In this document: in pieces, positions 48,133 to 64,000 of the stretch
Layout of the letters: each line of letters opens with the position of its first letter
How positions within the stretch are numbered: the stretch's first letter is position 1
Source of the DNA: Catenulispora sp. MAP5-51
Lineage (GTDB): Bacteria; Actinomycetota; Actinomycetes; Streptomycetales; Catenulisporaceae
Direction of reading: 5' to 3'
NCBI RefSeq assembly: GCF_041261205.1
Contig: NZ_JBGCCH010000002.1
Coordinates: 558,001-622,000, forward strand
Length of the DNA stretch: 64,000 bases
Program-made: the position numbers and the translations under genes
The notes under the pieces: generated by a model
The model's input: the letters and a program-made list of their open reading frames with translations, nothing else
The model's database searches: none
What the model was told of the DNA's origin: nothing

Positions 48133-49007
48133 TACCACCACGATGGGGTCTCCTGTACCTGGTCCATGCGCGTCAGCAAGCGCTTCCTGGTTCGCGGCTT
48201 GGCCATACGCCACAGCCAGGCGTATCCCGCAGCGAACAGCGCGAGACCACAGGCAAGAACGAACTGCCCGCTCGCGGATCCGTACGGGGACAGGAAGGAT
48301 CGATCCAGCACGAACAGCCCGGCGAGCATGCCAGCCGTCACGCACGTGACGATGCGGACGCTCGTACGAACCTGCACACGCGCAGCCTGTGCGCGCTTGC
48401 GCTGCGCCGCATGCGTGCGAGCTGTAGCGGCCAGCGAGCCAAGCAGCCCAGCCAGATCTTGCGCGCTGTTCCGGATCGCGTGAACCAGGCAGACCACGAC
48501 GATGTCCCCCGTCGGGTCGTGGAGCTCGTCCGCAAAAGCCGCGAGCGCGACGGCGAGGTCTTGCTGATCATCGATCCGGCGAGCCAGCCCGCGGGCCTCT
48601 ACAGCGATCGCTTCTGGCGCGGCAGCGCACGATGAGCGAACGGCCTGTCCGATGCCTGACGCGGCCGACAAGGTGTCGCGCAGTATCTCGGTGAAGGTCG
48701 CCACCGCTTCAGTACGGGCCAGCTCCTGAGCCGTCGACCGATCGGGCCCAAGTAGGACAGGCAACCACCACGTCGCAAGACCGCCGGCCAAAGCCGCCGC
48801 AGGCCAGTTGGTGATCAGGCCAGCGGTCACGCCGGCACCGATGCATGCGGCCAGCTTCCGAGAGTTGCCCTTCAGCTTGGCGAGCGTGAACCGTCGACCG
48901 AGTCTGAACCGCCGTGTCGGAGGCTCGACGCGGAACGCCGCGACTCCGCAAGCCACGCCGAGGCCGACGGTTGTACCGCAGAGCGCTCCGATAGCGCCGA
49001 CGTTCAT
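48132..49007 (-). CDS. TadB-like inner-membrane protein of Flp pilus
   Basis: A 291-residue protein, ATG overlapping the ATPase stop (ATGA). Membrane helices near 1-25, 55-85 and 210-265; T2SSF domain with FTEILRDTLSAASGIGQAVRSSCAAAPEAIAVEARGLARRIDDQQDLAVALAAFADELHDPTGDIVVVCLVHAI. Partner of TadC in the platform. Confidence 0.85.
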   Translation of the reverse strand: MNVGAIGALCGTTVGLGVACGVAAFRVEPPTRRFRLGRRFTLAKLKGNSRKLAACIGAGVTAGLITNWPAAALAGGLATWWLPVLLGPDRSTAQELARTEAVATFTEILRDTLSAASGIGQAVRSSCAAAPEAIAVEARGLARRIDDQQDLAVALAAFADELHDPTGDIVVVCLVHAIRNSAQDLAGLLGSLAATARTHAAQRKRAQAARVQVRTSVRIVTCVTAGMLAGLFVLDRSFLSPYGSASGQFVLACGLALFAAGYAWLWRMAKPRTRKRLLTRMDQVQETPSWW

Positions 49008-50299
49008 CGGGGCCTCCGGAACGTCGCCGGGTCGAAGCCCGCGCCCTCCAGCTGCGCCAGCCGCGAAGGTGGAGTGGCCGGAACCGCGCGACGGTCCGGG
49101 CCAGGGCGGAAGATCTCGTTCGCGACCACCATTGCGCCATCGGCGCCGGTGATTTCCAGAACCGACGACACCACACGCGTACCGTCTGGGGCCTGGTCCA
49201 GCTGAACAACCAGGTGCAGCGCGTTCGCCACGAGCAAGTTGGTCGAAGGCAGGTCAAGCCGCTCCGGAGCCTGCGCCGCGTATGCGGCCAGTTTGGCGAA
49301 TACGCCCCTTGACGTCGAGGCGTGCAGTGTGGCCATGGAGCCGTCGTTGCCCTGCGACATGGCGTTGCACATGGGGATGACCTCGGCGCCGCGGATCTCG
49401 CCGACGATGACGCGGTCCGGCGACATGCGCAGGCCGGCGCGGACGAGTTCAGCTTGGGAGATCGCCCCGCGGCCTTCGGAGTTTGCCTCGCGGGCCTGCA
49501 TGGGGACGACGTCCCAGTGTCGGTCCGGGTCGGTGTCCAGGCCGAGCTCGAGGGCATCCTCAATGGTGACGAGCCGTTCGGTCGGATCCATCTCGGAGGC
49601 GAGCGCCCGAAGCATGGTGGTCTTTCCTGCACCGGTCCCGCCAGCAATAAGGATATTGAGCTTCGCACGCACAGCAGCCGAGAGAAACGCCCCGAGTCCT
49701 GCATTCACGGTGCCAAGAGCGATCAGATCCGCCAGGGTCGCCTTCGGGTAGCGATGCCTGCGAACACTGATGCAGGGCCTCTTGGTCACCGCCATGACCG
49801 CGAACAGCCGCGATCCGTCGGGAAGCTGGAGCGAGAGCATCGGAGCGCCCCGATCGAACCGCCGCTCCTCGTGGCCGACGCGCGCGGCGGCCGTCCGAAT
49901 CAGATCGATCAGCTCCGCGTCGCTATCTGCAATCGGGAACGCTCCGCGCTCTCGCCGGCCGTCAGCAAAACGGAGAAAGACCTGGTCGTGACCGGTGGCG
50001 TTGATGTTCTCGACATCCGGCATATCGAGGTACGGCTGGAGACCACCCATCGCGCACAGCGCATCGGTGACGGACTTCTCCAGCGTCGCGGCCTCATCTG
50101 CGAGCCCGGGTCCGTTCGGCTGTCCCATTGAGGAAAGGCGGATCCGGACTTCCGCTGCGATCAGTTCTTCCGCCAGCTCGCGGCGTCGAGCAGAAGGAAT
50201 TACGGCACCAGTTCGGTCCTGCTCCGCGCGCACAGTGAGTGAAAGCCTGCGGGCCACCACGGCGGTCACCTCGGCCACCGACCCCAACGACGTCGTCAC
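49004..50299 (-). CDS. cpaF: TadA/CpaF-family secretion ATPase of Flp pilus
   Basis: A 431-residue ATPase starting at GTG that overlaps the SAF-domain gene stop. Walker A NILIAGGTGAGKTTML (~215-230), Asp box VTIEDALELGL, Walker B DRVIVGEIRGAEVI, His box GSMATLHASTSRG. Type II/IV secretion ATPase superfamily, CpaF/TadA branch. Drives polymerisation of the pilus. Not to be confused with the tRNA deaminase tadA at 19699. Confidence 0.93.
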   Translation of the reverse strand: MTTSLGSVAEVTAVVARRLSLTVRAEQDRTGAVIPSARRRELAEELIAAEVRIRLSSMGQPNGPGLADEAATLEKSVTDALCAMGGLQPYLDMPDVENINATGHDQVFLRFADGRRERGAFPIADSDAELIDLIRTAAARVGHEERRFDRGAPMLSLQLPDGSRLFAVMAVTKRPCISVRRHRYPKATLADLIALGTVNAGLGAFLSAAVRAKLNILIAGGTGAGKTTMLRALASEMDPTERLVTIEDALELGLDTDPDRHWDVVPMQAREANSEGRGAISQAELVRAGLRMSPDRVIVGEIRGAEVIPMCNAMSQGNDGSMATLHASTSRGVFAKLAAYAAQAPERLDLPSTNLLVANALHLVVQLDQAPDGTRVVSSVLEITGADGAMVVANEIFRPGPDRRAVPATPPSRLAQLEGAGFDPATFRRPR

Positions 50300-53594: not shown

Positions 53595-55064
53595 TCAGGC
53601 ATCGATAAAGAAGGCAGGCTCGTAGAAGTCGGCGGTAGCGACGTCCTCGTACACCGTGGTAGGTCGGATGCGGTTCCATCGGTGGCCCAGTAGCAGGGCC
53701 AGCCCCAAAGGCCCGGCCAGGAATAGGTGGACGTGGGGCGCGGTGCGCACCGTCTCTCGTACGGCGTCGCGGATGCCGACAGCCAGGGCGTTGGCCGTCG
53801 AGGCGTCGGGGATGGAGTTGTCCTTGGCGCCGCCTGCTGGCGGGGCTAGCACAAGCAACGAGCCGACGGAGAGCTGCTGGTCGCGGAGATATCTCAGAAT
53901 ATCGGTGGTCGGGTCGGTGGCCACGGCGATCGCGACGGCGAGGTCCGGGCCTTGGCCAAGGGAGTGTTCTACGATCGCCGGAGTCGCGGCCTCATAGTCC
54001 GCTGAGGTGCTCCACACCTGCCCGCGCTGAAGGATCGCCAGATCAGCGCCGGAGACCATGCGAAACGCGGCTCCGGTGCAGAACGCGGGGGCCTGGCGAA
54101 GGCTTCCAGTGACGGCGATGTCGGTCTTTCCACGCAGGAACATCGGGGCAGCTTCGATGTCCGCCTGGAGCTGGGCCCAGGTCGCCGGCGCCTTCGGGCG
54201 GCGCTTGGAGTAGGCGGTGGCGCCGTCGAAGCGGTCGGTCCAGTCCAGGCTCCAGTCTGCCTGGTCGGCCACCGGATCCGGCTTGAGTGTGGCGATCGAC
54301 AGCACGGCCCGGGCCGGGCCTTGCTTCAAGTCGAGGTCCTGAACCGCCTTCTCGATGAGGTCCAGGCTCAGGGTCTTGTAGCCGTCGCGGACCATGCGGG
54401 CGACCCAGTCGGCGCCAGCATCGATGGCGTGGTCCTCGTACCGCAGGCCGGCGGCCAGCATCAGGAGCTGGACTAGCTCGCGCAAGTGCTGCGGGTCGCG
54501 GCCGAGGTCGAAGCGAAGGACGCCGAGCAGCTCCAGCAGTTCCTGCTCGCTCACCCCGGCGCCGACGGCCCAGCGCTGCCGAGCTTTGCCTCGGTCGCTT
54601 CGCGGCCCGTGGACGCCAGCCTTGGGTAGCAAAAGCTGCGTGCGGGAGTCACGATCGCGGATCAGCGGGTCGCCTGGGTCAGGGTGCCGGTTCGTCACGA
54701 GGGCAAGGTCGACCTGCGAGCCGCTCGCGGTCAGGCTCCGCCACGCCGCGGCGATCTTGGCGAGGATGGAGGGGCCACCGGTGGGGCTGGGGCTCAGCAG
54801 GTAGTCCTCGTTGACGGGCGTAGCGCTGTCGACGGCGTACTTGACCTGTTCGTAGCTGTTGGGCGGTTGTGCGCGGTAAAAGATGACGTCGTCGAGGTTT
54901 CCGGCCCCGTCGGCTTCGACGCCGATCGCGACGATCGGGTTGGCCGGGCGCAGGGTTTGGTCGCGCAGCACGGTCACGCAGCCGTGCCACGCCACCAGCC
55001 ACTGGTAAAGGTCGCCAGCGATACGCACGCCGCTGCGGCTGGGAGGCTGCAGCGCGCCGCTCAT
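53595..55064 (-). CDS. cap4: CBASS effector: DUF4297-type nuclease with SAVED domain (Cap4-like)
   Basis: A 489-residue protein, ATG overlapping the previous gene stop. N-terminus (~12-80) fits a PD-(D/E)xK/DUF4297 endonuclease: GVRIAGDLYQWLVAWHG, acidic residues in GVEADGAGNLDDVIFY and the core EQVK (Glu72-Lys75). The C-terminal ~150 residues are a SAVED sensor with the signature TAPHVHLFLAGPLGLALLLGHRWNRIRPTTVYE. SAVED binds cyclic oligonucleotides and activates the nuclease, which degrades DNA. Last gene of the CBASS operon. Confidence 0.82.
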   Translation of the reverse strand: MSGALQPPSRSGVRIAGDLYQWLVAWHGCVTVLRDQTLRPANPIVAIGVEADGAGNLDDVIFYRAQPPNSYEQVKYAVDSATPVNEDYLLSPSPTGGPSILAKIAAAWRSLTASGSQVDLALVTNRHPDPGDPLIRDRDSRTQLLLPKAGVHGPRSDRGKARQRWAVGAGVSEQELLELLGVLRFDLGRDPQHLRELVQLLMLAAGLRYEDHAIDAGADWVARMVRDGYKTLSLDLIEKAVQDLDLKQGPARAVLSIATLKPDPVADQADWSLDWTDRFDGATAYSKRRPKAPATWAQLQADIEAAPMFLRGKTDIAVTGSLRQAPAFCTGAAFRMVSGADLAILQRGQVWSTSADYEAATPAIVEHSLGQGPDLAVAIAVATDPTTDILRYLRDQQLSVGSLLVLAPPAGGAKDNSIPDASTANALAVGIRDAVRETVRTAPHVHLFLAGPLGLALLLGHRWNRIRPTTVYEDVATADFYEPAFFIDA

Positions 55065-55984
55065 TCGCTCTCCGTGAACACCGGGCTGGGCGCCATATCG
55101 GAGGCGAGGGTGAGAAGGTCCGGGTCGCGGACGGGTTGGTCAGGGAAGGCCTGCACGATGGCGGCAGGGATCAGCCGCTGGGTGAGGTCGGAGTAGGTGA
55201 ATCCGGGGCGATCGGCAGTAGGGCCGGTGACCTCGACGAGTTTGGTGATGGTGCCGGGTCCGATGCCCAGTCCGGACAACGCCTGCTCCAGGACGGCGCG
55301 CCGCTGCAGGTCGTCGGGCCGGCCGAAGTTGAACACGGCCGCGGCCCGCCGCAGGATCGCCGGGTCCAGCGCCCCCACCCGGTTGGTGCACATCACCACT
55401 AGCACAGAGACTCCGGCGCCAGCGAGGCTGTCGATGCCGGCCAGGAACGCGTCCACACCGGCGCGGTCTTCGTGGTGCATCTGTTGGGCTTCGCGGGACT
55501 GGGCCAGGGCGTCGGCCTCGTCGATGACGAACACCAGGACCGACGTGGCGCCACGGGGCCCCCGTGCCCTGCCGCCCTGGTGGTGCAGGTGCGCGAAGGC
55601 CTCGCCGATGAGGGTGGTCATCTCCCCGACCAAACCACTGCCGCGCGTGGACAGCTTGAGCCGGTACAGATAGACCGGCAGGTCCAGGAACTTGGCGAGG
55701 TCGCCGCCGAAGGACTCGGCTAGCGCAGACTTCCCCGAGCCGACGTCGCCGGCAAACACGAACAGCGGCGCCCGGTCGGTAAACAAGCTCAAGGCGGCCA
55801 CGTGGTCGGTATCGTGGTGCTGACTTGCCCAGGCCTGCAGCCGCTGCGGGTCTGCCAGCAGAGCCGCCTCCTTGCGCAGCCGCTGCTTGATGCCGTCGAG
55901 CCCCACCAGCCGATCGTAGCGGGCCTGGCGGACTGGCTCGGGGAGTTCGATCACGGGGTGGAAAAGGTCGTCCTGGTTGGCCAT
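55061..55984 (-). CDS. cap6: TRIP13/Pch2-like AAA+ ATPase of CBASS (Cap6)
   Basis: A 307-residue AAA+ protein, start chosen at ATG 55984 because the open frame above it has no domain. Walker A AGDVGSGKSALAES (~78-91), Walker B VLVFVIDEADAL (~149-160), sensor 1 Asn201 in CTNRVGALDPAILRRAA with Arg finger(s) 212-213. Sits between the HORMA and effector genes. In CBASS this remodeller releases HORMA from the CD-NTase and turns signalling off. Confidence 0.85.
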   Translation of the reverse strand: MANQDDLFHPVIELPEPVRQARYDRLVGLDGIKQRLRKEAALLADPQRLQAWASQHHDTDHVAALSLFTDRAPLFVFAGDVGSGKSALAESFGGDLAKFLDLPVYLYRLKLSTRGSGLVGEMTTLIGEAFAHLHHQGGRARGPRGATSVLVFVIDEADALAQSREAQQMHHEDRAGVDAFLAGIDSLAGAGVSVLVVMCTNRVGALDPAILRRAAAVFNFGRPDDLQRRAVLEQALSGLGIGPGTITKLVEVTGPTADRPGFTYSDLTQRLIPAAIVQAFPDQPVRDPDLLTLASDMAPSPVFTESE

Positions 55985-56013
55985 GTGAAGGATCCGTTCT
56001 GCGAGGGGAAGGA

Positions 56014-56532
56014 CTACAGCGCGACGTACACATCGCGGGTAACACCGGTGCCGGCCCGGCCGTACCCGTGGCCAGGGGTGGTCGTGCCCAGCGATGCGGT
56101 CGGCTCCGGCGCGCCAGTGCGCTGGAACGGCAGGTCCTCGCCGAACCGCGACTTCTCCGCTGCCCCCAGCAAGTGGTACGCCAAGCTGTAGGTCAGATAG
56201 CTGTAAAAGTCCAAACCCTGCACGGCGACGCTGGCTGGCAGGGCGCCGGGCCGACTGTCCAGCAGCTGACCCCCGGTTGTGGCCCGGTAACGCAGGCGCA
56301 GCCGCCACGACTGGCTGTCAGTGTTGCGGAAGCCGTAGTCCACCGTGTTGAGGTAGCCAGCCTTCAGCAGCAGGGCGACTTCCTCGACGAAGTCGGGGAT
56401 GACCGCCAGGTCGGGTTTGCCGTAGAGGTTGTGCAGCAGCCGAAGATCGGTCCCCACCTTCGCCCCGACGTAGCGGGCATCGGTGATCGTGAAGCTGGCG
56501 GAGCGGGTCATCGAGACGGTCATGGCGCTCAC
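56014..56532 (-). CDS. cap7: bacterial HORMA-domain protein of CBASS (Cap7)
   Basis: A 172-residue protein, GTG overlapping the CD-NTase stop. Fold and length fit bacterial HORMA proteins: SFTITDARYVGAKVGTDLRLLHNLYGKP, VEEVALLLKAGYLNTVDYGFR, WRLRLRYRATTGG, and SYLTYSLAYHLL. Identification rests on these similarities and on the position between a CD-NTase and a TRIP13-like gene; it should activate the CD-NTase after sensing a phage signal. Confidence 0.75.
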   Translation of the reverse strand: MSAMTVSMTRSASFTITDARYVGAKVGTDLRLLHNLYGKPDLAVIPDFVEEVALLLKAGYLNTVDYGFRNTDSQSWRLRLRYRATTGGQLLDSRPGALPASVAVQGLDFYSYLTYSLAYHLLGAAEKSRFGEDLPFQRTGAPEPTASLGTTTPGHGYGRAGTGVTRDVYVAL

Positions 56533-57527
56533 GCCCCCGGGAAGGTCGGGCCGAACAGCTCGCGCCAGGCATCAGTGGCGTCGCCCTTCGTGGGCGCCAT
56601 GGCCGCCCACGTCACCGACTCCAGCGCGGCCTCGGCACGTTCGACAAGGCGGCGCCGGTCCAGCTCCAGGTAAGTCGAGGCGACGTTGTTCTCCGGGTTG
56701 ACCGGGTCCCATACCTGGATCGGGTCCGAACACGCCACGACCTCGTCGGCGTCGTAAAAGTCCTCGAAGGTGATCGGCGCCTTCATCCCCGTCGTCACGA
56801 TGTAGGACAGCACCTGCTCGAACGCCCTGGGGTAGTCCCCGACCTGCAAAGACTGGCCGTTCCAGCCGTGCGCCCACAGGTGCGCCACCAGCAACTCCAG
56901 CAGGAAGCTCTTGCACCGCAACGAGGGGTTCTCGACCTTGGCATGCCGGATCCAGGCTTTCAGCAGCCGGATGAGCTCGGCGTAGCCGCGGCCGGCCTGG
57001 CGCTTACGCTCCTCGATGAAGCGCAGGTGCAGCGTCACCGAGGTCAGGACCTTGTTCCCTTGCCGGGTCACCAGGTGGCCCTTGTCGTCGGGTTCGCCGG
57101 TGTACAGAACCGGCGCGACGTCGATCTTCAGGCCCGTGCCGCGCAGTGTGATACCCACCGCGTGCTCGGAGATGACGAAGTCCTCCGCGTCCTTCCTCAC
57201 CCCGTACACGGCGCGACAGCGTTCCTTCAGCCACTCCAATAGCTCGCAGTCATCGATGTCGAGATCCCCGGTGCGCAGGTACGCCGCGACGTCGGCGTCC
57301 GAGCCCTCCTTCTTCTTTCGTTGGATCGCCGTGTGCTTGGCCGTGCTCCCCGAGGCGCGCAGCTTCACCAGGTCGAACCCGGGGTGCGCGTCGATGTGCA
57401 TCTCCAAACGCTGCCGCAGGTGGTTCACCTGCCTGCGCCGCTCTGCCGCCTCGTCCTTCGACACGTTCACGCTCTTCTGCGCGAATTGTGCTAGCACTTG
57501 GTGATCGACGTGAGTTTCCTCTGCCAT
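56529..57527 (-). CDS. CD-NTase cyclic-oligonucleotide synthase of CBASS
   Basis: A 332-residue nucleotidyltransferase. Signature GSTAKHTAIQ (Gly60-Ser61) followed by the catalytic SDADV (Asp77, Asp79) and third carboxylate in GLKIDVAPV (Asp136); C-terminal helical OAS-like domain (LIRLLKAWIRH...LELLVAHLW) ~180-300. Makes a cyclic di- or trinucleotide that activates the SAVED effector. The clade (C, D or other) cannot be set by eye. GGGAG lies 12 bases before the ATG. Confidence 0.9.
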   Translation of the reverse strand: MAEETHVDHQVLAQFAQKSVNVSKDEAAERRRQVNHLRQRLEMHIDAHPGFDLVKLRASGSTAKHTAIQRKKKEGSDADVAAYLRTGDLDIDDCELLEWLKERCRAVYGVRKDAEDFVISEHAVGITLRGTGLKIDVAPVLYTGEPDDKGHLVTRQGNKVLTSVTLHLRFIEERKRQAGRGYAELIRLLKAWIRHAKVENPSLRCKSFLLELLVAHLWAHGWNGQSLQVGDYPRAFEQVLSYIVTTGMKAPITFEDFYDADEVVACSDPIQVWDPVNPENNVASTYLELDRRRLVERAEAALESVTWAAMAPTKGDATDAWRELFGPTFPGA

Positions 57528-58413: not shown

Positions 58414-59172
58414 ATGACGGGCGAAACACGCTCCATCCAGCGTAGTGACCATGATTCGGCGCGCATGCGTGAGCTGCTGCGGGCCGACGCCGCTGCGGCC
58501 ATCGACGACGACCTCGACGACGACGTATTGGGCGAAACCTCAGAGCTGTCTACGAATGAGAGCGAAGGCGACCGGCCTGGCCGTCCGAAGTCGCAGGTCT
58601 ACTCCATCCGAGTCCCGGTCGAGCGATTGGAACAGGTTCGCCAACTCGCGAAAGGCCGCGGGATCGCACCTACCGCAATGTTGCGGGAATGGGTGTTGGC
58701 TCAGCTCGACGTTGAGACCGGATCTACGTCGGACGAGGCCTTGCGACCTGCAGCATCGAGTAGTGGACAGCGTGCTTCTGCTGGCGGCTGGGACGCCACT
58801 TCAAGCGGTCCTCTGGAAGCGACGGTAGCTAGCCTGACAGCCATCGCTGGACAGTTTACTCAAGCCCTGACGCTGCTAATGGAGCTGGTTGCCGCACAAT
58901 CGGCGATGAAGCCGCGGCCGACCATAGCGGTTCAGGCGTTTCCTGCGATGTTTCACGCTCCGTCAAGCTCGCTGCACTCAACACCCGCTGGTATTGCTTC
59001 ATTTTGGCCGACGTTTCAAGAGTCCGTTTGGCTAGGCCATTCGTCGGCAGCGGTTGTGCACCGCGGACTTGATGAGCTTTGGGTGACTGTCGAGAACGTT
59101 TCCGGCCGAACCGATCTCGAGGATCTCCCAGCAATGTATTTGGCAGTCGATGAGGAGATGGCTAATCCATGA
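58414..59172 (+). CDS. ribbon-helix-helix (antitoxin-like) protein with long C-terminus
   Basis: A 252-residue protein; ATG 58414 has GAGACGGAG 7 bases upstream, starts at 58351/58369 are possible. An acidic N-terminal region precedes an RHH/Arc-like motif (VYSIRVPVERLEQVRQLAKGRGIAPTAMLREWVLAQLD, ~66-104). The C-terminal ~140 residues (helical LTAIAGQFTQALTLLMELV plus WLGHSSAAVVHRGLDELWVTVENV) are unusual for an antitoxin. Overlaps the next gene by ATGA. Predicted to autorepress at the GTAATAC sites. Confidence 0.6.
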   Translation: MTGETRSIQRSDHDSARMRELLRADAAAAIDDDLDDDVLGETSELSTNESEGDRPGRPKSQVYSIRVPVERLEQVRQLAKGRGIAPTAMLREWVLAQLDVETGSTSDEALRPAASSSGQRASAGGWDATSSGPLEATVASLTAIAGQFTQALTLLMELVAAQSAMKPRPTIAVQAFPAMFHAPSSSLHSTPAGIASFWPTFQESVWLGHSSAAVVHRGLDELWVTVENVSGRTDLEDLPAMYLAVDEEMANP

Positions 59173-59924
59173 CGCCGAATCGCCAGACTGAACTCGGGGA
59201 TCAGCAGAAAAAGACCCGCCACTCAGGCGAGACGAGTTCACCTGATCCAGATCAGGAGCCAGACGTCACTTCTTTTCCGCATGCGACCTTGGAAGCTGTT
59301 CTCCGGCAGCTCGCTGGATTGCGTCTGAGCGCAGCAGCCGATGAGCAATTGACGCAGCTGATTCGCATCGCCGACTCGGCAACATGGTCAGTGCCAATCC
59401 CAATGACCATTTTGCTTGGTGGCGTCGTGGTACAAGGAGTGCTCGTCCCGAGTGAGGTCAGTGCAACTTTTCTCGATGACGCTCTCAGGCATGCTGCCCA
59501 CGACGCAGTGGATGAGCTGGAACGCCAGAATAGTCATGAGCGGGAGAGGGAGCAACGTTGGGAATCCAAGCGAAGCCCTGAAGCCTTAATCCTTCAGCAT
59601 GCACGCAGTTTCCTTCAACGCATTACACGCCGACCGTTTGCCACTGCCCAAGCGAAGCTTCGCGAGCGCAATGCAAAAGCGCTTGTCGCCATCAGTCGAT
59701 GGCATACCGAACGTGATCACGGACCTCAGGTGACACCTCTCGATATTCCCGGAAACTACGCAGACGCTTCATCTGAAGCTAGGGATGTCGTTCCGTACGT
59801 TGTCGGCCAGCGCGCCATAACTCTAATGAACGCAAAGATGCTGGTCGGGGGCGAGTGGCTTTCCCTTCCGTCTCCAGTACGGCTGACGGTAGGGCATATT
59901 AGCGCTTGGACTATGGACTTGTAG
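59169..59924 (+). CDS. third gene of the TA-like cassette, unknown
   Basis: A 251-residue protein translated from an ATGA overlap with the RHH gene. Acidic N-terminal region, segment WSVPIPMTILLGGVVVQGVLVPSEVSATFLDDAL, a charged coiled coil (~115-140 and ~160-185), and C-terminal beta-like ITLMNAKMLVGGEWLSLPSPVRLTVGHISAWTM. No family recognised. Contains a TTA codon at 59586-59588 and lower GC. Its partner and role are unknown. Confidence 0.6.
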   Translation: MTPNRQTELGDQQKKTRHSGETSSPDPDQEPDVTSFPHATLEAVLRQLAGLRLSAAADEQLTQLIRIADSATWSVPIPMTILLGGVVVQGVLVPSEVSATFLDDALRHAAHDAVDELERQNSHEREREQRWESKRSPEALILQHARSFLQRITRRPFATAQAKLRERNAKALVAISRWHTERDHGPQVTPLDIPGNYADASSEARDVVPYVVGQRAITLMNAKMLVGGEWLSLPSPVRLTVGHISAWTMDL

Positions 59925-60016
59925 TCTTGAAGGTGTCCGCCACCTACGACTGCACTGCAAATCGCCGCAGAAGCAACCGCCGCATGTGGTGTTGTTAACG
60001 ACCAAGCACACTTACA

Positions 60017-60059
60017 AATCGATTGGAGTACCGCTGCTACGGTGGCGCTCCAATCGATT
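60017..60059. terminator. 12-bp inverted repeat between convergent genes
   Basis: AATCGATTGGAG and CTCCAATCGATT, with inner ACC/GGT pairing, between the TA-like cassette and the aaRS-ASCH gene; a bidirectional terminator. Confidence 0.75.
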
Positions 60060-60188
60060 CCCTTCCAGTTTTCGCAGCGGCCGATCTTCCAGTCCGGACA
60101 GGCGGTGCTGCGGCGACGTCTACCGACCCCAGGACTTCCGTCCGAGTCCAGAGAGCGGCAGTACTGACGCTTCGCCTACCAACTCGCG

Positions 60189-61625
60189 TTACACGAGTTC
60201 GATCTCGATAGCCAGGACGCCGAGGGCTTCCTTCTCCGGGCCGTAGATCCGGCGGATGTTGGCGAGTTGCTGCTCGCGCGGACTGTCGGGGTTGACCCGT
60301 GCCGGCCCCTCGGTGTCGAGCATCTGCTCGAAGGAGTTGTACCGGGCGACCCGTTTGACGCGTGTCAGGGCGTCGTCGGTGCCGCAGATGAAGCGGATGT
60401 GGTCGCCGGAAGCCAGGCTGCGCAGGTTGGGGTACTGGACCCGGACTTCGATGGTCTTGCGGCCGGAGGCGACCAAGTCGAAATAGCGGCGGTAGAGGTT
60501 CATCTCGCGGGCGCGAACGCCCGTCTCGGTGCGGGGTCGGGCGTTCATCAGGCGGTCGATCTCCAGGGTCGTGTACGAGCGGTAGAAGTGTTTGGGGTCC
60601 GACAGCATGCGACCCACCAGCCAGACCATCGCGTCGACGTAATCGTCGACGGCGCCGGCCCATGCGGTCGCGTCCAGCATCCACGGCCTGGCGCCGGGCG
60701 GCGGGGCCATCCGGCCCTCCCGGATCAGGGACTTGGACAACTTCGCGCCAGTATCGGTTAACACCATCGGGGTGAATACGCGCGGCGGCGGGGTGAGGCC
60801 GGGCAACTGGGTAAAGGCCTCATCGACCAGCTGGCAGCCGAAGGCCCAATCACCACCCTTGATCATCACCGACAGCGTCACGCCGTCGCGAGCGGCCACG
60901 CGCTCCTTGACCAGGTTCCGGTACAGGGTGGCCAGATCCAGGTAGGCGTGGCTGTCCGGGGTGATGGTGGCCTTGTAGTCGCCGTGGTCGGTGCAGACCG
61001 CGGCGAAGTCGGCGCCGCCGGAGCCGGCGGCTACCAGGCGGGTGCGTTCGGCCCGCTTCTCCGCCCAGCCGCACGCAGGACAGGGAAAGCGCAGATGAAC
61101 CTGGCCGTGAGAGGGCGCCAGTGGCCACCGGATCGTCTCCAGATGGCCCAGGGTCGCCAGGAACTCGTACCGGAACACCGGATCTGCCTGCTGGGCGCTG
61201 TAGGTCTCGACCTCATAGTCGACGCCGGTGGCGTCGGCCAGGGAGTCGAAGAACGCCCGGTAGTACTGCTCGACCAAGCCCTCGATGCCGGCCGGGCCGA
61301 GGGCATGGTGGTAGGTCTGCTGGTAGGCGTGGTGCGTCTCGGGGTCCAGGACGACGTCGTAGGGGGCGTTGTCGAGCGCGCCGAAGCGGACTATGGCGTC
61401 AACGTTGAAAATGCGCTTGGCTGCCTTGGCCAGCAGGAACGCTGCGGTCTGCACCAAAGAGGTGCCCAGGTGCGGGGCGCCGTTGATCTGGGTGCCGACA
61501 CAGAACGCGACGCGCTCAGGGCGGGACGCCTGTAGGCGGGGCCGGATCATGTCGATGCTGCGCAACATCGCATTGGCCAGGACGTTGTTCGGGCTGACGA
61601 TCTCCACGGTCGGTTCGAGGGCCAT
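60189..61625 (-). CDS. class I aaRS-like protein fused to ASCH domain
   Basis: A 478-residue protein. HIGH-like motif HLGT (52-55) in QINGAPHLGTSLVQ, KMSKS-like motif KLSKS (295-299) in DTGAKLSKSLIRE, GGDWAFGCQ (~258-265), and a zinc-like site Cys182/Cys185...Cys211. This is the class I lysyl-tRNA-synthetase (LysK) core without an anticodon-binding domain. Residues ~375-478 are an ASCH domain (MNLYRRYFDLVASGRKTIEVRVQYPNLRSLASGDHIRF). Such a protein may adenylate and modify RNA or an amino acid, not charge tRNA. Function unknown. Confidence 0.75.
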   Translation of the reverse strand: MALEPTVEIVSPNNVLANAMLRSIDMIRPRLQASRPERVAFCVGTQINGAPHLGTSLVQTAAFLLAKAAKRIFNVDAIVRFGALDNAPYDVVLDPETHHAYQQTYHHALGPAGIEGLVEQYYRAFFDSLADATGVDYEVETYSAQQADPVFRYEFLATLGHLETIRWPLAPSHGQVHLRFPCPACGWAEKRAERTRLVAAGSGGADFAAVCTDHGDYKATITPDSHAYLDLATLYRNLVKERVAARDGVTLSVMIKGGDWAFGCQLVDEAFTQLPGLTPPPRVFTPMVLTDTGAKLSKSLIREGRMAPPPGARPWMLDATAWAGAVDDYVDAMVWLVGRMLSDPKHFYRSYTTLEIDRLMNARPRTETGVRAREMNLYRRYFDLVASGRKTIEVRVQYPNLRSLASGDHIRFICGTDDALTRVKRVARYNSFEQMLDTEGPARVNPDSPREQQLANIRRIYGPEKEALGVLAIEIELV

Positions 61626-61643
61626 GAGCGATCTCCTGCGCTG

Positions 61644-62216
61644 CTAGGCGGTGGGCGCGGACACGTTGGCGAGGATCTGCTCGACGCGCTTGGCCGGCTC
61701 ATCAGCGGGGATGAAGATCGGGCGGTATCCGGTGTCGTAGTAGCCCTGGACGATCAGTTCGTGGACCCGGCGGATCTCCCGGTCCTGCGCGAACACCAGA
61801 TCGTCCTCGGCGGCGAAGGAGTCCAGCGGGTCCAAGACGAACACGGCGTCGTAGCGGTAGATCCGGGCGGCCTCCTCCAGTTCCGGATACGGCGACAGGC
61901 CGAAGAAGGCGTCCCAGCCGTAGCCGTCGGGGATGCCGCGATTGTAGAACCGCAGGCCGTGCTTGTGGGCGGCGTATTCCTGCACGAACGCCGCGAGGAC
62001 TTCGCGAGAGTATTCGCGGCGGTCCCCGACCTGGAGGTGGCGGTCGAGGCGTTCGCGGTGCGCGCGGTAGATCTCGCGGGCCGGCTCGCCTTCGGTGGCC
62101 GGGATGGCGCGGGCAGCCATCTCGGCGAGCACAGCCTCTTTGCCAGCGGACGGCCCGCCCGTAATCACGTAACGACGAGGTGGCCCGGACGAGTCGATCA
62201 AGGCGACCAAATCCAT
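61644..62216 (-). CDS. P-loop ATPase/kinase-like protein
   Basis: A 190-residue protein, ATG 62216 with AAGGAG 8 bases upstream. Walker A ITGGPSAGKEAVLAEM (~18-33); GLRFYNRGIPDGYGWDAFFGLSP, VFVLDPLDSF (Walker B-like) and FIPADEPAKRVEQILANVSAP resemble AAA_28/NadR-like small ATPases and nucleoside kinases. Partner of the aaRS-ASCH gene 19 bases downstream; stop of the preceding gene overlaps its start (TGATG). Confidence 0.72.
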   Translation of the reverse strand: MDLVALIDSSGPPRRYVITGGPSAGKEAVLAEMAARAIPATEGEPAREIYRAHRERLDRHLQVGDRREYSREVLAAFVQEYAAHKHGLRFYNRGIPDGYGWDAFFGLSPYPELEEAARIYRYDAVFVLDPLDSFAAEDDLVFAQDREIRRVHELIVQGYYDTGYRPIFIPADEPAKRVEQILANVSAPTA

Positions 62217-63136
62217 CAGGAAGCTCCTTCTTCGGCGGGGACTGCAGACGCGGCCAGGTCTTTGCACCAGGCGTTCGCCTCGGTGGCGCCAGAACTGGCC
62301 TGGACCGCAGACCAGAACTGCTCACGCGAGTCAGATTGGGAAGCCGCTGCGGCCAGCTCGGCAGCAAGTTCGTCGCTCAGGACCGGAAACCAGCCAGCAA
62401 GCCGCCCCAACTCCTCAGGCCCGGTCTGCGGATCGGCTCCGAGTACGCTCGGGCCGTACGCGATCACGTATCCGGCGGCCGCATTCAAGGTCTGGGCCAG
62501 CCGCCACAACGCAGTGCGGGCGGCCTCGGCTGCCTGTGCGGAATCCGGCCCACCCATTCCGATGGCGACCGCAACAGCCAGCAGCGCGGCCCGTAGCGCA
62601 TAGACGCCGGACCACAGCAGGGACAGCGCCTGCTCGTGCTCGGCAGCTTCCCAGGCAAACACATCGGCGGGCAGCCGCAAAGGTCTGCGAGCCTGGCCAA
62701 GTGCCGGAGGGATCGCGCGGCTGCGAAGGTCCTCGCTATCCGCGTTCAGCATGTCCGCGAGCTGCTCGCAGATCTCCGGCTCGACGCGCTTACGGAAGTG
62801 ATGGACCTCGTAGCCAGCCGCCGCCGCGGCCTTCTCCCGCCGCTCCGTCAAAGTCAGCCCGGCGGCCTCAGGCACTGCACCGAACAGCAGTCGGGTCGGC
62901 ACGGCCAGGCGGTGGTGCACGAAACGGGCGAGCTGCCAACGAAGCAACGAGTCCAGAGCTCGCAGACGACTGGCCGGATCATCCGGCCACGCAGCCCGCG
63001 CGACGACGCCGCGCAGATCGAGCAGGGCGGGATCGACAACGGTGTAGTCGGGCAGCGGCAGCCCCGCGCGCAGCAGATCGCGCAGGGCCGCTCCCGAAGC
63101 CTGCGGCCCGGCGGTCACTGATGGCGCCTTGTGCAC
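62216..63136 (-). CDS. helical protein of unknown function, first gene of aaRS-ASCH operon
   Basis: A 306-residue, Ala-rich protein with no recognised motif: GLTLTERREKAAAAAGYEVHHFRKRVEPEICEQLADMLNADSEDL may be a small helix-turn-helix-like segment, and ALSLLWSGVYALRAALLAVAVAIGM is a buried or membrane-associated helix. Its stop overlaps the start of the P-loop gene, so the three genes form one operon. Confidence 0.6.
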   Translation of the reverse strand: MHKAPSVTAGPQASGAALRDLLRAGLPLPDYTVVDPALLDLRGVVARAAWPDDPASRLRALDSLLRWQLARFVHHRLAVPTRLLFGAVPEAAGLTLTERREKAAAAAGYEVHHFRKRVEPEICEQLADMLNADSEDLRSRAIPPALGQARRPLRLPADVFAWEAAEHEQALSLLWSGVYALRAALLAVAVAIGMGGPDSAQAAEAARTALWRLAQTLNAAAGYVIAYGPSVLGADPQTGPEELGRLAGWFPVLSDELAAELAAAASQSDSREQFWSAVQASSGATEANAWCKDLAASAVPAEEGAS

Positions 63137-63456
63137 GTGAAGAAGCCGGTCACGGCATTAGTTAACCACCGATACCCAGTAAGTGCCCAGCACTTTGCCC
63201 AGTGAATGCCCACCGGTATGAGCTCATACGAGCAGGGCCGTTGGCACTCGCGGCAGGCCGGGAACTCTAGGTAGAGGCAGCAGAACCAACTCCTGGCCCT
63301 GTTTGCAGCGGCATGCTGCGAATGCCGTTGCTGCGCAGTTCGCGCGGTGATCGGGTTCCGGGTCCGACGGCCCGCGGTTCCCGAAATCCAGGATCGCGTT
63401 TCCGTCCAGGTCTGTAATCTGGCTCGATACGTACCACCCAGGTCTGGAGCAGCACG
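63137..63456. other. divergent promoter region
   Basis: No gene seen. Contains the perfect 14-bp palindrome GTATGAGCTCATAC (63216-63229) and repeated GCCCAG units at 63185-63215. It separates the aaRS-ASCH operon from the gene at 63457. Confidence 0.6.
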
Positions 63457-64000
63457 GTGAGCACGTTCTTGGACCCGCTCGATGCACAGCAGCAAGCGCT
63501 GGTAGACCTGGTGTGGCCGCAGTTCGCGAAGACGAACCGGTTCCCCAACTACCAGTGGGTCGAGTACATGATGCGGCGCATGGGCTACAACGCCGCAGAA
63601 GCAATCAACACCATGCCGGCGGTGGGCATCCCGGACAAGCTCGGACGCTACAGCACCATCTGGGTCGCCACGATCGGTGGGGCCGTGCAATTGGATGACG
63701 AAGTCCGTCTGACCATGGCGGGTCTCTACCACGTCAACAGCCCCGCTGCGACGAAGGTGATCAAGGGCGTGCTCGAATACGCTCGCGCGCTGTCCAAGGC
63801 GCAGGACCAGATCGCAGACCACCCGTTCGGCGGCTACAGCCCTCAGCTATTCCTGAGGAAGTCTCTGCGGAGCAAGAGGGAGCCGTTCCTCGACGCCGTT
63901 GGCACCGTTGCCGAGCACGAATGGGTGATCATGCGGATCGGCAAGGCCGGCGCCCAGGGCGAAGACTGGCTAGGCCGACTGGCCCTGGTGTCAGAGGCGA
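63457..64000 (+). CDS. partial gene of unknown function, runs off window
   Basis: GTG start with GGAG 7 bases upstream; frame open to the window end (181 codons so far). MSTFLDPLDAQQQALVDLVWPQF, WVEYMMRRMGYN, MAGLYHVNSPAATKVIKGVLEYARAL. No conserved motif recognised. Divergent from the aaRS-ASCH operon across a palindromic region. Confidence 0.7.
   Translation, partial: MSTFLDPLDAQQQALVDLVWPQFAKTNRFPNYQWVEYMMRRMGYNAAEAINTMPAVGIPDKLGRYSTIWVATIGGAVQLDDEVRLTMAGLYHVNSPAATKVIKGVLEYARALSKAQDQIADHPFGGYSPQLFLRKSLRSKREPFLDAVGTVAEHEWVIMRIGKAGAQGEDWLGRLALVSEA

Follow-up and report, generated by a model that had tools for sequence, protein, structure and literature searches.

A mobile three-gene cassette around a synthetase-like ASCH protein in Catenulispora and other actinobacteria

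What is the task of an operon that combines a trimmed protein resembling an aminoacyl-tRNA synthetase (aaRS), a P-loop protein and a helical protein? Such an operon, with the gene order C-B-A, occupies positions 60189–63136 on the minus strand of the window, the 64,000-nucleotide stretch of Catenulispora sp. MAP5-51 DNA analyzed here. The original prediction, made from the letters of this stretch, had seen in it a candidate undescribed system that might adenylate and transfer an aminoacyl or nucleotide group in defense or nucleic-acid modification. As a whole, this interpretation is partly supported by our analysis. We read the operon as a mobile accessory cassette for conflict or fitness, built around a stand-alone amino-acid-activating ligase that would act on a nucleotide or RNA acceptor, and we assign this reading a probability of about 40%. 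The features on which the argument draws are the following, in window coordinates.

60189–61625, minus strand: gene A, 478 amino acids, class-I-aaRS-like core (~residues 20–366) followed by a C-terminal ASCH domain
60192–60503, minus strand: ASCH domain, A residues 375–478, of the archaeal 2z0t/1xne-like branch, with Glu at the position of YqfB Thr24
60729–60743, minus strand: KLSKS, KMSKS-type signature, A residues 295–299
60984–61082, minus strand: putative zinc site C182, C185, C211 and H214 of A, each present in 84/84 sequences
61461–61472, minus strand: HLGT, HIGH-type signature, A residues 52–55
61644–62216, minus strand: gene B, AAA_28 P-loop protein, 190 amino acids from its ATG
62136–62159, minus strand: Walker A motif GGPSAGKE of B, with Glu or Asp in the family where Ser or Thr is expected after the P-loop lysine
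62216–63136, minus strand: gene C, 306 amino acids, GTG start, all-helical by prediction
62723–63136, minus strand: N-terminal domain of C, ~residues 1–138, with remote relatives that stand alone or before a macro-like domain (read by eye)
60193–63214, no strand assigned: cassette common to both copies in the MAP5-51 genome, 86.5% DNA identity, comprising the three genes and ~78 bp upstream

The three open reading frames (ORFs) and their Pfam domains confirmed the operon. Above Pfam cut-offs, we found ASCH in A, AAA_28 in B and nothing in C, and no NCBIfam or PADLOC family (PADLOC-DB 2.0.0) matched any of the three proteins up to E 1. The HLGT and KLSKS motifs and the zinc-like site claimed for A are present, B is a P-loop protein as stated, and C, described as helical and without a known family, is so according to its predicted model and the searches. 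Gene coupling had been read correctly at the TGATG junction, where the start codon of B overlaps the stop codon of C; the gap between B and A measures 18 bases (61626–61643), not the 19 given. Between the two copies in the genome, the ratio of nonsynonymous to synonymous substitution rates (dN/dS) was 0.06 for A, 0.07 for B and 0.19 for C. All three genes are under strong purifying selection, with C the fastest evolving.

A scan of the whole collection returned 194 relatives, from which the best 80 were taken for the census, so that the sample is biased to near relatives. C, B and A occurred together in 49 of these 80 loci, with the same order and strand in 49/49; this strand count is complete, as no opposite-strand matches existed that could have been missed. 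B and A alone were found in two loci, while 29 had no B. The low dN/dS values and the shared order and strand in 49/80 loci show that the three-gene unit is more than chance, and the conservation elsewhere that the original prediction presupposed is thereby found. Core and ASCH were fused in 52/80 loci and encoded by adjacent genes, hereafter the two-gene form, in 26/80 (mainly Streptomyces), and ASCH was absent in 2/80. These figures include two loci reassigned by hand to the fused class: L068, where the best ASCH match came from an additional incomplete copy, and L096, with its frame break. The automatic count had been 50 fused, 28 adjacent and two without ASCH. Stop and start overlapped in 24/26 adjacent loci, where the first four bases of the ASCH gene are also the last four of the core gene. 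Among the 49 triads, a possible B start overlapped the C end by four bases in 36, by one base in two (the type found in the window) and by neither in 11.

For alignment of the synthetase-like cores, 84 sequences were used: the window, 77 of the 80 loci, phage Mojorita, a Pantoea relative, two Macrococcus-type plasmids and two distant actinobacterial cores. Omitted were L083 and L088, each with an in-frame stop, and L096; L069 and L098 have a frame break, yet left a long enough piece and were retained. In a FastTree tree of 84 cores, 25/26 two-gene loci and the phage separated from the fused forms, with L093 falling instead among the triads, and the two B-A forms lay outside the triads (joining support 0.67).

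The triad is a mobile unit carried as cargo by Tn3-family transposons and plasmids, and the two-gene form occurs on phages. The two copies in the MAP5-51 genome match only over the cassette; close to the second are genes for a TrwC relaxase and an ISL3-type transposase. In Actinomadura violacea, the triad sits inside two 8,097-bp Tn3-family elements (L057 and L058, 6640–14736) that are 99.99% identical, have inverted ends of ~97 bp (~96%) and carry a Tn3 transposase, a resolvase, a 129-amino-acid ORF and the triad. In L095 and L099 it is likewise bracketed by inverted repeats with Tn3-like transposases; L052 and L072 contain Tn3-like transposase pieces, and bracketing repeats were not found there. 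No perfect 5-bp target-site repeat appeared in the 12 bases flanking the Tn3-like elements, for which the ends of L095 and L099, taken from BLAST boundaries, may be off. Full triads were present on plasmids of Streptomyces sp. HUAS 15-9 and Amycolatopsis sp. AA4, and A with B, the two genes tested, on a Prauserella marina plasmid. Phages Mojorita and Picard bear the two-gene form, in Mojorita beside a serine integrase; 12 viral contigs held the triad in two cases and the two-gene form in ten. Among genomes of the class, 17/394 matched (the core in 11, a remnant of it in one, and in five only ASCH or fragments of ASCH), compared to 8/10 genomes of the genus (six near full length, two remnants) and 1/294 Planctomycetota genomes, the latter already known. 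Because these genes travel together on transposons and plasmids, or on phages in the two-gene form, and encode a synthetase-like enzyme in trimmed form together with a helical protein and an ATP-binding protein of unusual type, the cassette looks like a real, still unexplained portable biochemical system.

Gene A carries the hallmarks of the class I aaRS superfamily, namely HIGH- and KMSKS-type signatures and, by prediction, a Rossmann core. P51, H52, G54 and T55 were kept in 84/84 aligned cores, as were K295 and K298, while S297 occurred in 83 and L296 and S299 in 82. An AlphaFold2 model of residues 1–366, built on a 10-sequence alignment, reached a mean predicted local distance difference test score (pLDDT) of 86.3 and supports the aaRS-like fold that had been proposed. 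Against the PDB, Foldseek ranked class I lysyl-tRNA synthetase (LysRS) first, at E 3.8e-8, ahead of GluRS chains and further structures. Structural alignment with VIA-align gave Z 19.6 for class I LysRS (1irx; 287 aligned, root-mean-square deviation (rmsd) 3.7) and Z 18.9 for the bacillithiol cysteine ligase BshC (4wbd; 289 aligned, rmsd 3.7), with lower scores for CysRS (14.4), GluRS (14.1) and the mycothiol cysteine ligase MshC (13.3), at identities of 6–16% throughout. On this model, the core is predicted to be nearest to class I LysRS and BshC, the two being tied. The likeness is one of fold: neither tRNA-synt_1f (PF01921) nor the BshC family (PF10079) matched A above cut-off, no synthetase family in Pfam or NCBIfam did, and searches of the MAP5-51 genome with PF01921 (at E 0.001) and PF10079 returned no match. 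Comparison of A with LysRS-I in hhalign gave a probability of 31.6% (E 5e-4), with the HIGH, zinc and KMSKS sites in register, and the best hit of the A core profile among PDB sequences (E 0.055) was taken as chance.

Only ASCH exceeded the Pfam cut-offs in A, which agrees with the original prediction of a core without an anticodon-binding domain; the ASCH domain at 375–478 follows directly on the 366-residue core, so that no room is left for an anticodon-binding or tRNA-recognition C-terminal domain. ASCH (PF04266) matched at E 4.4e-9 and 37.4 bits against a gathering cut-off of 21.2. Among solved structures, the domain comes closest to the archaeal proteins 2z0t, 1xne and 1s04, with E values from 3e-19 to 2e-17; YqfB-type structures matched far more weakly (E 0.0033 and 0.0066). 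A study on YqfB describes a Thr-Lys-Glu catalytic triad with Thr24 as nucleophile (PMC6972931). Measured against the residues named there, the Lys21 and Arg26 positions are retained in the cassette ASCH and the Thr24 position is Glu in 15/15 sequences. We rejected identity with a YqfB-type N4-acetylcytidine amidohydrolase on this ground, the missing nucleophile making such a role unlikely. Predicted toxin–antitoxin and restriction loci are reported to contain ASCH genes, some with an AAA ATPase (PMC7641849). In two genomes of the same taxonomic order, ORFs combining ASCH and NUDIX-like domains (domains read by eye) were seen at L046 9255–10124 and L047 9068–10756, adjoining methyltransferase-like sequence.

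Gene B matched AAA_28 (PF13521) at E 4.5e-22 and 79.5 bits (cut-off 27) and departs from the canonical Walker A motif GxxxxGK[ST]. In the set of 52 members (the window and 51 loci), the residue after GK was E in 26 and D in 24, giving 50/52; the exceptions, L097 (S) and L101 (R), are both loci without C, and nine ordinary AAA_28 relatives had T or S in 9/9. B is otherwise highly conserved, with 53 invariant columns among 22 sequences. Against sequences of solved structures, B alone found nothing up to E 1, and the best hit of its profile (E 0.16) was taken as chance.

Gene C belongs to no known family and has no convincing fold match. Its 50 sequences were aligned, and in a set of 38 one protein shared 82% identity with that of the window and the other 36 shared 39–54%. 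The model is all helix (pLDDT 89.5, predicted template modeling score 0.69). At E 0.001, Foldseek returned nothing for it (its lowest value was E 1.0), and the best VIA Z of 6.4 may, for a helical protein, reflect merely a common arrangement. Pfam searches of the 38 members touched six families up to E 1, one member each (best E 0.021), and the C profile reached E 0.17 against sequences of solved structures, both taken as chance. Among 296 genomes of the class, 17 matched the profile at E 0.001: four matches in three genomes were full-length triad C, one (G060), located where a contig ends, was partial but strong, and the remaining 14 fell within the first 148 profile positions, several running on into a macro-like domain (by eye). 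Such a macro-like domain follows the N-terminal domain of C in L180, L181, L183 and L186 (by eye), and a 131-amino-acid ORF of L184 contains the N-terminal domain alone. This part of C may be a general actinobacterial adaptor domain.

Under the preferred reading, A would first use ATP to activate an amino acid in its LysRS-I/BshC-like core, as the fold and conserved signatures suggest. The aminoacyl group would then pass to an acceptor bound by the PUA-like ASCH domain, which would be a nucleotide, a nucleoside or an RNA; normal transfer to a cognate tRNA is not expected, because the anticodon-binding domain is lacking. B, a P-loop protein of nucleotide-kinase type in which metal coordination would be altered, would prepare or gate the acceptor, and C, helical and fast evolving, might couple or trigger the enzymes. 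The cassette probably serves in conflict against mobile elements, phages included, or brings some other benefit as cargo; a defense role is plausible. Gene order, domain make-up, signature conservation, purifying selection and element carriage form the computed level of support. We also count a nucleotide-handling context in favor, consisting of the ASCH–NUDIX ORFs and of a TIGR00730 gene and a nucleoside triphosphate (NTP) pyrophosphatase beside the Pantoea relative of A, as well as the published occurrence of ASCH genes in predicted toxin–antitoxin and restriction loci. In a bolder version, which is possible although doubtful, the cassette would represent an undescribed class of mobile conflict system. 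Its synthetase-like enzyme would yield a nucleotide or RNA that carries an aminoacyl group, the atypical P-loop protein and the helical protein, as a rapidly evolving sensor, would gate this, and Tn3 transposons, plasmids and temperate phages would spread the system, with the two-gene phage form as its minimal version.

The surroundings of the cassette add context. About 2.7 kb away, the window contains a type-III-like cyclic-oligonucleotide-based antiphage signaling system (CBASS) operon on the minus strand (53595–57527) with an oligonucleotide cyclase (NF041116, E 2.7e-113), bacHORMA_1, an AAA ATPase and a 489-amino-acid protein that ends in a SAVED domain; the first 310 residues of this protein gave no Pfam match at E 1e-5. 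A T2SSE-family ATPase at 49004–50299 is possibly part of a transfer or pilus region. Among 145 neighbors of triads, the commonest Pfam and PHROG families were regulators, resolvases, invertases or integrases and transposases, none in more than seven, and no constant extra partner emerged from the 45 largest neighbor clusters listed or the 25 commonest Pfam families. PADLOC matched 29 models in this set, the 25 listed accounting for one or two proteins each; as there was no background set, we claim no defense enrichment. Near the two-gene form, XRE-type regulators (PHROG regulator families, up to 10/148) and RsbW-like HATPases (8/148) were frequent. On a Streptomyces koelreuteriae plasmid, the record annotates a Pycsar system effector (L179 6188–6670) just upstream of the two-gene form. 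No T-box that could name the amino acid was detected at Rfam gathering scores in seven loci, which contained an IS1222 frameshifting element (L176) and rli23 (L178), and the single sub-threshold Rfam match in window 59000–64000 was at chance level.

Several observations weigh against a nucleotide- or RNA-directed conflict cassette. The acceptor of A is a guess drawn from the ASCH domain. By sequence alone, with the fold set aside, the link of A to the synthetases is weak, and so is a defense role derived from the few PADLOC matches among the triad neighbors. The frame of A is broken in 5/80 loci, by stops in L083 and L088 and by frame shifts in L069, L096 and L098. Two Streptomyces cores (L102 and L103, from Streptomyces lilacinus and S. 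netropsis) join one triad group in the tree (support 0.92), yet their loci lack ASCH, B and C and place the core among metabolic or biosynthesis-like genes. Finally, the distant Pantoea and Macrococcus relatives stand in biosynthesis-like operons, for which a small-molecule acceptor fits as well.

These last points lead to the alternative that survives best, which we nonetheless consider unlikely: A would be a MshC/BshC-like ligase that joins an amino acid to a low-molecular-weight amine, such as a thiol cofactor precursor, a specialized metabolite or an antibiotic, B would phosphorylate, and the cassette would confer resistance or a metabolite benefit. The fold matches of A include both of these enzymes, BshC and MshC, and its ASCH-less relatives adjoin PALP and methyltransferase genes (Pfam, L036) or, in S. 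netropsis, OCD-, OTC- and PhyH-like neighbors (read by eye). The Pantoea plasmid operon (L176 9225–13005) encodes, by record annotation, a methyltransferase, the A-like core, a TIGR00730 protein, which we take to be LOG, a drug/metabolite transporter as exporter and the NTP pyrophosphatase. On the Macrococcus-type plasmids (L177 4134–8048 and L178 7461–11375), the core accompanies two ATP-grasp genes and a small gene without a Pfam family (Pfam on L177), and a major facilitator superfamily (MFS) transporter is also present. Carriage on Tn3 elements and plasmids is, moreover, typical of resistance genes. However, the 45 clusters revealed no transporter or biosynthetic gene at a constant position next to the triads: an ATP-binding-cassette ATPase-like cluster occurs in 10/80 loci at scattered offsets, and MFS_1 in 2/145 neighbors. 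The persistence of ASCH as a fused or overlapping gene calls for a reason, and temperate phages bear the two-gene form alone.

A tRNA-directed enzyme resembling GluQ-RS is improbable. Here, A with its ASCH domain would modify or mischarge host or phage tRNA, either as an anti-phage effector or as a shield of the mobile element from tRNA-targeting defense. A synthetase core without an anticodon domain joined to a PUA-like ASCH would suit this, as would carriage by a temperate-type Streptomyces phage beside a serine integrase; however, the scheme gives B and C no task, and tRNA genes do not recur, being absent from 8/12 scanned loci and present in the other four, of which L033 and L073 probably represent one organism. 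More improbable again is a toxin–antitoxin or addiction module, in which one of A, B and C would be toxic, another would neutralize it and the pair would keep mobile elements in place. The small operon with overlapping genes, the patchy spread and the decayed or partial copies are of the expected kind, but purifying selection acts on all three genes, the two-gene form does without B and C, and A and B, with their conserved active sites, resemble enzymes. An ordinary spare aminoacyl-tRNA synthetase, for which the name tRNA synthetase given to the gene by phage annotators would speak, is disfavored and very improbable, since A has neither an anticodon-binding domain nor a Pfam or NCBIfam synthetase family and its distribution is sporadic (core in 11/394 genomes of the class plus one remnant).

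In open-licence literature, we found no description of an ASCH–synthetase system, with partial coverage that does not prove absence from print, and in the open-licence full texts searched 'ASCH domain' and 'tRNA synthetase' did not occur together in any paper. Should the product prove to be a nucleotide or RNA conjugate with a function in conflict, bacterial immunity would gain a new type of chemistry. The two-gene form in temperate-type phages of Streptomyces, a genetically workable host, makes what the enzyme aminoacylates directly testable.

Among known systems, class I LysRS (LysRS-I) resembles A in the predicted fold of the catalytic core and in its three aligned signature sites, but shares 10% identity in the fold alignment, is represented by a Pfam model that misses A and differs from its arrangement of a ~366-residue core followed by ASCH, in which no anticodon-binding domain was found. 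BshC is equally close in predicted core fold and is an established example of a synthetase-like ligase with a small-molecule substrate, without a Pfam match in A; we know of no counterpart of B, C or ASCH in that system. MshC, a chromosomal cofactor-pathway enzyme and another synthetase-like ligase without a tRNA substrate, is a weaker match (8hfn, 3c8z) at the level of CysRS. GluQ-RS (YadB), derived from GluRS, is a synthetase core without an anticodon domain that aminoacylates a tRNA base; its likeness to A is by description only, and to our knowledge it has no ASCH domain or partner genes. YqfB shares the ASCH family and the two retained positions, but differs at its nucleophile, with the cassette domain nearer to the archaeal structures. 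The AAA_28 family, which includes NadR-type kinases, differs from B in having GK[ST] where B has GK[ED]. Outside translation, synthetase-like ligases are known as individual cases; a portable cassette around such a ligase, common to actinobacterial transposons, plasmids and phages, would be a new setting for this chemistry.

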